Shown here in pieces: positions 1,236 through 46,036 of a stretch of 52,431 nucleotides of DNA. The translations under genes were made by a program, and so were the position numbers. The stretch comes from Bifidobacterium breve (GTDB lineage: Bacteria > Bacteroidota > Bacteroidia > Flavobacteriales > Flavobacteriaceae). The stretch is from NCBI GenBank assembly GCA_943323545.2, contig CALPIE020000003.1, positions 1-52,431 on the forward strand, in the 5' to 3' direction. Positions within the stretch are counted from its first letter, which is position 1. Each line of letters begins with the position of its first letter. The notes under the pieces were generated by a model that saw only the letters and a program-made list of their open reading frames with translations, did no database searches and was not told where the DNA came from.

Positions 1236-2513
1236 ATGAATTTACTTTTAAAACATGCTATAGTTAACCAACAATCAACAATTAAAATTACAGGTTCCAA
1301 ATCAGAAACCAACCGATTGTTATTGTTACAAGCACTATATCCAAACATCACTTTAGAAAACACATCTAATTCGGATGATTCGCAAGTGATGATTCAAGCG
1401 TTGAAAAGTCAAGATGCGTTAATCGATGTGCATCACGCCGGAACAACCATGCGTTTTCTTACCGCTTTTTTTGCTATTCAAGAAGGTCGCGAAGTAACGC
1501 TTACAGGGTCTAATCGAATGAAAGAACGTCCAATTAAAATCCTTGTCGATGCTTTGCGGCAACTCGGAGCTGAAATTGGCTACGAAGAGAAAGACGGATT
1601 TCCACCACTAAAAATTATCGGAAAAAAACTGACACAAAATAAAGTGTCACTTCCTGCAAATGTTAGCAGTCAATACATTTCAGCACTTTTGTTAATCGCT
1701 CCAAAATTAGAAAACGGTTTAGAACTAACACTTGAAGGCGAAATTACCTCCATTCCCTACATCAAAATGACATTGGCATTACTCAATGAAATCGGAGTAA
1801 AAACCTCATTTGTAAACAACAAAGTTCATGTTAACCGACAACCAACAACCAACAACCGACAACCAATAACAATAGAATCTGATTGGTCATCTGCATCCTA
1901 TTTTTATTCCATAATCGCTTTATCCCAAATCGGAACACAAATCACACTTTCTAGCTACAAACAAAATAGTTTGCAAGGTGATTCCGTTTTGGAAGAAATC
2001 TATAAAGACTTCGGAGTTGAGACTACATTCACAGATAATACTATTTTAATTAAAAAGGTGAATAATTATCAATTATCAACGGTTAATTATCAATTAAATA
2101 ACGCGCCAGACATTGCCCAAACCATAGCTGTAACGTGTTTCGGATTGGGAATTGGATGTCATTTAACAGGATTACATACTTTAAAAATTAAAGAAACCGA
2201 TCGATTACAAGCATTGAAAAATGAACTTGAAAAACTCGGAGCAAATGTTACTATTAGTAATGATAGTTTAATATTGAAAACTTATTCCCCTCCTTTGGAG
2301 GGGTGCCCGCAGGGCGGGGTGGTAGAAATCTCAACCTACCAAGACCACCGCATGGCAATGGCTTTTGCGCCTTTAGCTTTAAAAACGTCATTAATAATTG
2401 AAGATGCTGAAGTAGTTTCTAAATCGTATCCTACCTTTTGGGACGATTTAAAAACGATTGGTTTTAGGTTCGCTCCGTTTGGCGAAGCCTCAGGTCAAAT
2501 AGAAACACATTAA
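1236..2513 (+). CDS. aroA: 3-phosphoshikimate 1-carboxyvinyltransferase (EPSP synthase)
   Basis: Motifs 'AGTTMRFLTAFFA', 'GSNRMKERPI', 'ESDWSSASYFY', 'LKIKETDRL', 'TYQDHRMAMAFAPLAL'. ORF track starts at GTG 1224; ATG at 1236. Confidence 0.93.
   Translation: MNLLLKHAIVNQQSTIKITGSKSETNRLLLLQALYPNITLENTSNSDDSQVMIQALKSQDALIDVHHAGTTMRFLTAFFAIQEGREVTLTGSNRMKERPIKILVDALRQLGAEIGYEEKDGFPPLKIIGKKLTQNKVSLPANVSSQYISALLLIAPKLENGLELTLEGEITSIPYIKMTLALLNEIGVKTSFVNNKVHVNRQPTTNNRQPITIESDWSSASYFYSIIALSQIGTQITLSSYKQNSLQGDSVLEEIYKDFGVETTFTDNTILIKKVNNYQLSTVNYQLNNAPDIAQTIAVTCFGLGIGCHLTGLHTLKIKETDRLQALKNELEKLGANVTISNDSLILKTYSPPLEGCPQGGVVEISTYQDHRMAMAFAPLALKTSLIIEDAEVVSKSYPTFWDDLKTIGFRFAPFGEASGQIETH
1833..1867 (+). 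repeat. Intragenic heptanucleotide repeat (AACCRAC x5) inside aroA
   Basis: aaccgac aaccaac aaccaac aaccgac aaccaat in exact 7-bp register. Confidence 0.9.
2064..2098 (+). repeat. Intragenic heptanucleotide repeat (AATTATC) inside aroA
   Basis: aattatc aattatc aacggtt aattatc aattaaa, 7-bp register. Confidence 0.75.
2287..2322. repeat. CCCCTCC palindromic repeat inserted in frame in aroA
   Basis: cccctcc-ttt-ggagggg then gccc-gca-gggc; near-identical 36-bp copy at 35446-35481. Confidence 0.9.
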
Positions 2514-3819: not shown

Positions 3820-3902
3820 TTCCGTTTTCCTGCTTTTCGTTTCAATATCTTTGTCAAAGTTTAAAACTTCGACAAAGATGATTTCCACTACAATCAGGGC
3901 TA
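3820..3902. repeat. Composite dispersed element, copy B (conserved ends with RAYT-type palindrome core)
   Basis: Left end 'tcctgcttttcgtttcaatatct', core TTGTCAAAGTTTAAAACTTCGACAA (3851-3875), right end 'gatttccactacaatcagggcta'; ends match the elements at 43101-43196 and 52014-52110. Confidence 0.7.
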
Positions 3903-31263: not shown

Positions 31264-32217
31264 ATGAACTTCACGACCAAAATCCCGATTCCAAAATCTG
31301 ATAAACCCATAAATTATAATTCCAAAATAGTTTTGTTGGGATCCTGTTTTGCAGAAAACATGGGAGAGCAACTCGAATATTTTAAATTTCAAAATACGGT
31401 CAATCCTTTCGGAATAATCTTCAATCCGGTTTCTATTGAGAAGTTGGTTTCGAGAATTATAGACAAGCAAGAGTTCACAGAAAACGATATTTTCTTTCAC
31501 AACGAACGTTGGCATTCTTACGATGTACATTCGGATTTAAGTCATGAGAATAAGGACGAATTTCTAAATCAACTCAATCAAATAATCCAAAATTCCAACA
31601 ATCGAATAATCGAATCGTCACACATTATCATCACCTACGGAACATCATGGATTTACAAATTAAAATCCACCAATGAAGTTGTTGCTAACTGTCATAAAGT
31701 TCCGCAAGTTGAATTTGAAAAAGAAATTCTATCGGTGGAAATTATCGAAAAATCCATCCAAAATACCATCGATTACATTCGAAAAACAAATCCGAATTGT
31801 AAAATAATTTTCACAGTTTCTCCTGTGCGGCATCTCAAAGACGGATTTATAGCAAATCAACTCAGCAAAGCACATCTTATAACTGCAATTCATGAAACCG
31901 TTAACCGACAACTGACAACCGACAACTATTTTCCTTCCTATGAAATCATGATGGACGAACTACGCGATTACCGTTTTTATGGTTCAGACATGCTGCATCC
32001 CAATCAGGTCGCGATTGATTATATATGGGAAAGGTTTTTTGAAACTACCATTTCAGAAGCAAGTTATCCAAATATGGAAACCGTTTCGAGCATTCAAAAA
32101 GGATTGGCGCACCGGCCGTTTCACCCGAATTCGAAAAGCCATCAAAAATTTCTGGAAGAAATTCAGCAAATGATAAAAGTAGTACAACAGCAATTTCAAC
32201 ACATTGATTTTAATTGA
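31264..32217 (+). CDS. GSCFA domain-containing protein
   Basis: 'VLLGSCFAENMGEQLEYFKF...NPFGIIFNP', 'TYGTSWIY', 'DELRDYRFYGSDMLHPNQVAIDYIWERF'. Confidence 0.9.
   Translation: MNFTTKIPIPKSDKPINYNSKIVLLGSCFAENMGEQLEYFKFQNTVNPFGIIFNPVSIEKLVSRIIDKQEFTENDIFFHNERWHSYDVHSDLSHENKDEFLNQLNQIIQNSNNRIIESSHIIITYGTSWIYKLKSTNEVVANCHKVPQVEFEKEILSVEIIEKSIQNTIDYIRKTNPNCKIIFTVSPVRHLKDGFIANQLSKAHLITAIHETVNRQLTTDNYFPSYEIMMDELRDYRFYGSDMLHPNQVAIDYIWERFFETTISEASYPNMETVSSIQKGLAHRPFHPNSKSHQKFLEEIQQMIKVVQQQFQHIDFN
31903..31923 (+). repeat. Intragenic heptanucleotide repeat (AACYGAC x3) in GSCFA gene
   Basis: aaccgac aactgac aaccgac. Confidence 0.8.
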
Positions 32218-35109: not shown

Positions 35110-35140
35110 AACCGACAACCGACAACCGACAACCGACAAC
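35110..35140 (+). repeat. Heptanucleotide array (AACCGAC)x4 between paaA and paaB
   Basis: aaccgac x4 + aac, exact; same unit as in aroA, E2 and GSCFA genes. Confidence 0.95.
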
Positions 35141-44016: not shown

Positions 44017-44078
44017 AGTTATAAGTTATGAATTATGAGTTATGAATGAGTAACTCATAATTCATAACTCATAATTCA
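44017..44078. repeat. Heptamer-built inverted repeat
   Basis: agttata agttatg aattatg agttatg aatgag / taactca taattca taactca taattca. Confidence 0.9.
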
Positions 44079-44090
44079 TAAATACAAAAA

Positions 44091-44764: not shown

Positions 44765-46036
44765 ATGATAATAGAATTCAAAATGCCCAAAATGGGTGAA
44801 AGCATTTCCGAAGCTACCATCATTACCTGGTTGAAAAACGTGGGTGATTTTGTGGAAGCCGAAGAAACCATTGTCGAAGTCGCCACCGATAAAGTCGATA
44901 GCGATGTGCCCTCACCAGTTACGGGAGTAATCACTGAAATACGTTTTCAGAAAGATGACGTAGTTGGAGTTGGAACAGTTTTGGCGTTAATAAATTCTGA
45001 TGGGAAGCAAGAAGCAGGAAGCAAGAAGCAAGAAAATGTTGAAGTAAAAATCAATCAACCAAAACCTCAAAACCCAGAACCTAAAACCCAACATAAATCC
45101 AATTCCGATGCATTCATTTCGCCTTTAATAATTTCAATTGCTCAAAAAGAAAATTTATCTATAGAAGAATTGCAAACCATACCAGGTTCAGGTACCGAAG
45201 GCAGATTGCAAAAAAGTGATGTATTTAATTATCTAAAAAACAGAAAATATCCACTTCACTCTAAGCCGACAACCGACAACCGACCACCGTCAACTTTTCC
45301 AAAGCCTAAAATCAATTTCATAGAAGGAAAAGATAGAATTGTAGAAATGGATCGCATGCGCAAAATGATTGCCGATCATATGGTGTATTCCAAACAAACA
45401 TCGCCTCATGTAACTTCGTATATCGAAGTGGATGTGACGAATTTGGTGAATTGGCGCAATGAAAACAAAGACAATTTTCAAGAAAAACACAATCAAAAAC
45501 TAACATTTACGCCAGTTTTTGTCCAAGCTGTAGCCAAAGCCATAGTAGATTTTCCAATGATCAATGTTTCTGTTGAAGATGCAACTATTATTGTTCACAA
45601 TGATATTCATATCGGAATGGCAACAGCACTTCCCAACGGAAATTTAATTGTGCCTGTAGTTCGAAATGCCAATGAAAAAGATTTAATAGCATTAGCGTCA
45701 GCTGTGAATCATTTAGCAGTTGCTTCTCGAAATAACAATCTAAAACCCGAAGAAGTTCAAGGAAGTACGTTTACGATTTCGAACGTTGGAACCTTTGGAA
45801 GTTTAATGGGAACACCAATTATTAACCAACCCGAAGTGGCCATTTTAGCACTCGGAATCATAAAAAAACGTCCAGAAGTAATTACCACTTCCAAAGGCGA
45901 CGAAATAGCTATTAGAAGCATGATGTATCTTTCTCTATCCTTTGACCATCGTGTGGTTGACGGATTTTTAGGAGGTTCGTTCTTGCGAAAAATAGGCGAT
46001 TATTTAGAACAATTTGATACCAATACAACATTTTAA
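44765..46036 (+). CDS. 2-oxoacid dehydrogenase E2 (dihydrolipoamide acyltransferase)
   Basis: Lipoyl domain 'VATDKVDSDVPSPVTGVI', E3-binding domain 'FISPLIISIAQKENLSIEELQTIPGSGTEGRLQKSDVFNYL', catalytic 'LSFDHRVVDGFLGGSFLRKI'. Confidence 0.95.
   Translation: MIIEFKMPKMGESISEATIITWLKNVGDFVEAEETIVEVATDKVDSDVPSPVTGVITEIRFQKDDVVGVGTVLALINSDGKQEAGSKKQENVEVKINQPKPQNPEPKTQHKSNSDAFISPLIISIAQKENLSIEELQTIPGSGTEGRLQKSDVFNYLKNRKYPLHSKPTTDNRPPSTFPKPKINFIEGKDRIVEMDRMRKMIADHMVYSKQTSPHVTSYIEVDVTNLVNWRNENKDNFQEKHNQKLTFTPVFVQAVAKAIVDFPMINVSVEDATIIVHNDIHIGMATALPNGNLIVPVVRNANEKDLIALASAVNHLAVASRNNNLKPEEVQGSTFTISNVGTFGSLMGTPIINQPEVAILALGIIKKRPEVITTSKGDEIAIRSMMYLSLSFDHRVVDGFLGGSFLRKIGDYLEQFDTNTTF
45004..45031 (+). 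repeat. Heptamer array (GAAGCAA)x4 in E2 linker 1
   Basis: gaagcaa gaagcag gaagcaa gaagcaa. Confidence 0.9.
45059..45093 (+). repeat. Degenerate heptamer array in E2 linker 1
   Basis: ccaaaac ctcaaaa cccagaa cctaaaa cccaaca. Confidence 0.65.
45266..45293 (+). repeat. Heptamer array (CCGACAA)x4 in E2 linker 2
   Basis: ccgacaa ccgacaa ccgacca ccgtcaa. Confidence 0.9.

Follow-up and report, generated by a model that had tools for sequence, protein, structure and literature searches.

In-frame palindromes, intragenic REPs and heptamer repeats are all known already. As summarised in the part of PMC10969869 used here, Rickettsia palindromic elements (RPEs) are short palindromic repeats carried in frame by unrelated metabolic genes, where the peptide inserts are compatible with function. 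Intragenic REPs are described, in the sections of PMC3733652 available to us, as palindromes of 20-40 bp that are mostly intergenic and sometimes lie in ORFs, including those of repair genes, with mobilisation by RAYTs hypothesised. The TAACTGA heptamers are mostly intergenic repeats with a period of seven; according to the portion of PMC4679880 at hand, they were reported in five Bacteroidetes, with one set in a putative purC, and among repeats of this kind heptamers form the most common class, for which a 7-nt polymerase contact or footprint was suggested as a possible cause. Among the open-licence papers searched, none linked EPSP synthase, Flavobacterium and tandem repeats, and none dealt with in-frame palindromic repeats in F. 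psychrophilum; a concentration of such repeats in AroA is unreported in the literature found.

Here, two unrelated classes of non-coding repeat, tandem heptamers and several REP-like palindromes, fill the hairpin tips of a single enzyme, AroA, in Flavobacterium. These loop repeats turn over fast, keep the reading frame and spare the conserved catalytic motifs. The palindromes resemble RPEs in being translated in-frame inserts. RPEs, however, are about 150 bp long and spread over many genes, whereas the Flavobacterium elements measure about 20-40 bp, belong to several families, are joined by tandem heptamers and hit the equivalent hairpins of one gene repeatedly across the genus; judged by length only, the window's element (about 36 bp) falls outside RPEs proper. 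They are like GTAG/CGTC-tagged REPs in size and in being mostly intergenic and sometimes genic, a likeness drawn without reference to the tags, but a concentration on AroA hairpins is absent from the description of those REPs in the sections of PMC3733652 available to us. The heptamers share the period of seven with the known heptanucleotide repeats, and AACTGAT fits the AAYYNNN pattern described below. In-ORF repeats of the TAACTGA type are mostly placed at protein ends in the same portion of PMC4679880, whereas those of AroA occupy four internal or N-terminal hairpins, with in-register turnover of units and little or no change in length.

The gene under study, aroA, lies on the + strand at positions 1236-2513 of the window, by which we mean the whole stretch of DNA that was analysed (52,431 nucleotides). 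It is a single intact EPSP synthase ORF of 425 aa, as the first-pass annotation had read it, and in profile searches it matches PF00275 (E 4.3e-79) and TIGR01356 (298.3 bits, above the curated cut-off of 287.25). An AlphaFold (AF2) model, for which 34 related AroAs served as input, has a mean pLDDT of 85.6 and is matched in a fold search by solved EPSP synthases in the PDB (8umm, E 2.9e-32). The catalytic motifs of EPSP synthase (GSKSETNR, SSQ, DHRMAM and SKS) fall in columns that are invariant or nearly so in the 34-sequence alignment, in agreement with the initial claim that they are kept despite the repeat segments. The closest named AroAs come from Flavobacterium, and the genome assembly holding the window comprises 2.53 Mb in 220 contigs and is 86.7% complete. 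Several MAG records labelled Candidatus Nitrotoga, Chryseobacterium gleum or Rhizobium (L049, L065, L074 and L075) carry Flavobacterium-like aroA contigs; the titles or bins of these records look wrong.

Up to four repeat-derived insertions had initially been proposed in this gene. All four segments are repeat-related, with differing strength, and two of them are insertions. The tandem AACCGAC/AACCAAC array at the tip of hairpin 4 (1833-1867, + strand, residues 200-211) stands as described: TRF counts 5.4 copies, and its lag-7 window matches at 19/21 positions, relative to a maximum of 17/21 reached in 2000 codon shuffles. The imperfect AATTATC stretch at the tip of hairpin 5 (2064-2098, + strand, residues 277-288) reaches 14/21, which on its own is within the shuffle range, but 51 of 143 AroAs have a heptamer site in this loop. 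In an alignment with about 110 relatives, both loops are of ordinary length; because the relatives' loops are equally long, neither segment is an insertion, and both replace ordinary loop sequence without adding length. A further site, absent from the first-pass list, is the decayed heptamer stretch aaccaacaatcaacaatt at hairpin 1 (1265-1292, + strand, residues about 6-17), with a best lag-7 window of 14/21 in this genome; across the genus it is the strongest heptamer site. The tip of hairpin 2 (1407-1418, + strand, residues 58-61) is without a repeat in the window's genome, and in many relatives it carries an array (median +6 aa) or a palindrome.

The true additions are the palindrome and the C-terminal tail, both extra sequence relative to the roughly 110 aligned relatives. 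The palindrome (CCCCTCC..GGAGGGG) is inserted at the tip of hairpin 6 (2287-2322, + strand, residues 351-363, SPPLEGCPQGGVV) and lengthens the protein by about 6 residues. A count of its core, CCCCTCCTTTGGAGGGG, across the 2.53-Mb genome at up to 2 mismatches gives about ten places, with none for the reversed control, which bears out its reading as a dispersed element. Copies lie in frame in unrelated genes of the same genome, namely AroA, LeuS (contig C8:21290, L209) and PolA (C27:6870, L206); the LeuS peptide, SPPLEGCPEGGV, is read in the same frame as that of AroA (SPPLEGCPxGGV), and PolA uses another frame. In addition, a heptamer-like peptide, AQQPTKDNQQP, occurs at the N-terminus of LeuS. 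The tail (2469-2496, residues about 411-422), read on the opposite strand, has no genome copy within 3 mismatches, and the idea that it is a near-identical repeat was rejected. It is accepted at the family level only, as a diverged member of GACCYGAG-N-GCGAA, which has 8 members in the genome and none for the reversed control; the tail's reverse complement is one of the 8, and GACCCGAGGCAAAGCCGAACGGAGCGAA on contig C62 is an example of the others. Both elements are thus dispersed and multi-copy in the manner of REPs or RPEs, with about ten places for CCCCTCC..GGAGGGG and 8 for GACCYGAG..GCGAA.

The EPSP-synthase fold consists of six repeated subdomains. By the AF2 model, the four heptamer loops and the palindrome loop are the beta-hairpin tips of five of the six (residues 6-12, 58-61, 200-210, 275-281 and 348-362). 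Each is a tip joining two strands, with the exception of hairpin 2, which leads from helix to strand, and the helices with conserved motifs come shortly after these tips in the model. The placement of the repeat-derived segments in surface loops and at the C-terminus, as first suggested, is therefore supported by both the model and the alignment of relatives. At the third hairpin (residues about 129-135), which is better conserved, the lag-7 signal is absent from a nucleotide self-match of 89 aligned Flavobacterium AroA genes. The repeat loops are the least conserved columns of AroA, with a pair identity of 0.35 vs 0.76 elsewhere, and the refuting condition named in the first-pass annotation, conservation of these residues in distant relatives without repeat character, accordingly does not hold. 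A sequencing artefact is excluded by the recurrence of these repeats in dozens of genomes, a complete one included.

Repeat filling of AroA loops is widespread in the genus. The 89-gene self-match peaks at residues about 5-17, 53-63, 203-212 and 275-287 and does so at lags 7 and 14 only (up to 0.65 vs about 0.26), other lags being flat. When the loops are read directly, the units vary by species and include AATTCAC, AACCCGC, AACCATC, AACCTAC, AATCTGC, AACTTCC and AAAAGTC, among others. Most tandem heptamers in loops fit AAYYNNN, and inside genes they mostly end in C, so that TAA is avoided. In a sample drawn from a genus list, which is independent of the peptide-pattern search and weighted toward the most similar sequences, 42 of 90 AroAs hold one or more strict arrays, for a total of 73, relative to 3 at lag 8 and none at lags 5, 6, 9 or 10; across the ranges of this control, lag 7 gives 73-93 arrays, lag 8 gives 3-5 and lags 5, 6, 9 and 10 give 0-1. 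Tandem 7-nt units therefore exceed chance at period 7 alone, both in the window's array (19/21) and in the genus lag controls. In 20 other genera we found 5 arrays in all. Among 143 AroAs, loops with an array have a median length of 21 vs 20 for loops without one at hairpin 1, 27 vs 26 at hairpin 4 and 32 vs 31 at hairpin 5, such that arrays at these tips add at most about one codon; hairpin 2 does gain length from arrays (median 24 vs 18), and palindromes lengthen hairpins 2, 5 and 6. At least four palindrome families have entered these hairpins.

This filling is concentrated on aroA. In 89 loci, AroA accounts for 112 arrays in 99 kb (113 per 100 kb), a count inflated by relatives that were found through peptide patterns, some of them repeat-derived, compared to 2 in 657 kb of other ORFs (0.3 per 100 kb) and 24 in 91 kb of intergenic DNA (26 per 100 kb); the ORF control consists mainly of aroA-flanking genes, 400 kb of one complete genome and MurA. 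The AroA arrays are essentially of lag 7 and its multiple 14. Intergenic DNA of the same loci also has period-8 (16) and period-14 (22) arrays, in addition to those of period 7. Palindromes were counted by motif family because a perfect-stem inverted-repeat scan under-counts imperfect ones and misses the window's own; three families amount to 28 copies in AroA, 14 in intergenic DNA and none in 675 kb of other ORFs. The complete genome, whose AroA has four arrays, shows two in ORFs over the 400 kb sampled, one in an MnmE-like ORF and one at the 5' edge of a NadD-like ORF, names that we assign from reading the sequence. The MurA genes of 24 genomes, retrieved by profile search, encode an AroA paralogue of the same fold and contain no array within the CDS, vs 62 in the AroAs of those genomes. 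Two MurA matches (L253 and L258) are AACCGAC arrays just upstream of the start codon.

Other genes do carry such repeats, rarely. The window's genome has 95 heptamer matches vs 4 for the reversed pattern. Genes other than aroA that carry arrays there include those for a DegT-family aminotransferase, an RmlD-family reductase and a GSCFA protein, as well as that for an E2 acyltransferase, in which the arrays fall in the linkers. Within the window, an AACCGAC-type array is found in the GSCFA-family ORF (31896-31927, + strand; peptide VNRQLTTDN), an AACC heptamer-like stretch in the linker from the lipoyl to the E3-binding domain of the 2-oxoacid dehydrogenase E2 ORF (45059-45091, + strand) and a CCGACAA array in the second linker of that ORF (45266-45294, + strand). 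Since 7 and 3 have no common factor, one array encodes the same cycle of seven residues whichever of a strand's three frames is read (N R Q P T T D for AACCGAC), which explains the recurring peptide. The intergenic gap at 44017-44081, between two + strand ORFs, is filled by two heptamer arrays in inverted orientation, NNNRRTT followed by AAYYNNN, and similar minus-then-plus pairs occur on contigs C9, C38, C43, C74 and C93. At 35110-35140, an AACCGAC array lies directly upstream of the start codon of a small ORF; this position, like that of the two arrays before murA, is one described for TAACTGA repeats in Beggiatoaceae. Near aroA, a Y1-transposase/RAYT-like ORF (130-774) matches Y1_Tnp at E 2.7e-5 and falls below the cut-off of NCBIfam REP_Tyr_transpos. 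Four of the five genome copies of the palindrome TTTGTCAAAGTTTNAAACTTTGACAAA lie within 3.9 kb of the window's start (80-106, 373-399, 783-809 and 3850-3876), one of them inside that ORF itself; this flanking palindrome differs from the one in aroA.

Close relatives illustrate how quickly the loops change. Two 90%-identical AroAs carry AAAAGGG x4 and AAAAGGC x4 at hairpin 1, equal in place and length; their hairpin 2 units differ at equal length, and at hairpin 4 one has an array and the other a palindrome. On a loop-masked FastTree phylogeny, on which change counts are lower bounds, each heptamer loop requires at least 27-40 state changes and hairpin 6 requires 8 for its eight palindrome bearers. 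The codons that the hairpin-6 palindrome occupies vary slightly between lineages, pointing to separate insertions. In each loop, the AAYY core has a strongly concentrated phase with respect to the conserved flank, as would be expected of inherited arrays whose units change together; constraint by the flanking codons could contribute.

We favor, with a probability of about 0.6, an explanation in which the AroA hairpins are near-neutral sites that take in REP-like elements and whose heptamers are homogenised, with no shift of frame, by misalignment copying. The hairpin tips would be nearly neutral in sequence in one part of the genus and would there behave like intergenic DNA. Polymerase slippage or transient misalignment, with 7 nt as the preferred step, would both create the heptamers and homogenise them where they stand, and transient misalignment may copy the bases of a neighbouring unit at unchanged length, so that frame and loop length survive. 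Palindromes would arrive as REP-type insertions, possibly via RAYT/Y1 transposases, and selection would retain only those that are in frame, stop-free and located in loops. Slippage and insertion are here deduced from comparison between species. The repeat-derived loop peptides are probably passengers. The weak point of this explanation is that tolerance of five hairpins is by itself insufficient for a several-hundred-fold excess over other ORFs. A clade-specific process that actively rewrites the loops with repeat DNA as a form of loop diversification, with the AroA hairpins as preferred or selected landing pads, is an alternative that we regard as unlikely.

The turnover of units could instead be driven by ectopic gene conversion, with intergenic arrays elsewhere in the same genome as donors, a proposal that we likewise hold to be doubtful. 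Loops of one genome do share a unit more often than shuffled ones (10.6% vs 2.2%, with a maximum of 5.6% in 500 shuffles), the array in the DegT aminotransferase ORF of the window's genome equals the AroA array at 31/32 bases, and at least three genomes with AACCCGC x3 in AroA have it at other places too. AATTCAC x3, however, was present in 5 of 16 genomes tested and solely inside AroA in all five, so widespread intergenic donors are not a general source of copied units; AAAAGTC x3 is likewise confined to AroA in two of four genomes. Somewhat less credible again is that selection maintains the arrays because they act in aroA at the DNA or RNA level, perhaps as binding targets of a factor with 7-nt periodicity such as Rho (pyrimidine-rich, unstructured) or of a translational regulator, as proposed for the TAACTGA repeats of Beggiatoaceae. 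The strict 7-nt period, the sense-strand AAYY core, the four sites in one gene and the heptamers upstream of MurA in two genomes all fit such a role, and a translational role of heptamers is put forward in the available portion of PMC4679880. Yet at a given loop 90%-identical sisters differ in unit or have a palindrome instead, roughly half of the Flavobacterium AroAs sampled are without an array, the MurA CDS has none, and avoidance of stop codons would equally give the sense-strand bias.

Two further explanations were rejected. Phase variation, in which a change in 7-nt copy number shifts the frame and toggles AroA off and on, draws on the fact that seven is not a multiple of three and on earlier work, summarised in the same portion of PMC4679880, in which heptamer repeats are slippage-prone; we consider it improbable, as the arrays have only about 4-5 units, loop lengths differ by one or two codons rather than by 7- or 21-nt steps, and no array-bearing AroA examined is frame-disrupted, the sole short ORF ending at a contig edge. 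That the pattern is a mere coincidence of amino-acid usage in loops rich in N, Q, T, P and S is refuted by the lag controls (73-93 arrays at lag 7 vs 0-5 at other lags in 90 AroAs) and by a period of seven that runs out of codon phase across unrelated peptides (QFTIHNSQF, NPQPATRNPQ and EKSKVKSQKSKV).

A practical consequence is that QPTTDNR, SPPLEGCPxGGV and similar loop peptides of Flavobacterium proteins are repeat signatures and should not be taken for conserved domains. More broadly, the hairpins of AroA offer a natural, replicated record of non-coding repeats becoming protein, in which equivalent loops have taken up different repeats in many lineages and units have changed in register. 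The system allows tests of heptamer homogenisation inside an essential reading frame, of whether palindromes choose their sites or are merely tolerated there, and of why one gene takes up coding repeats hundreds-fold more than its neighbours.
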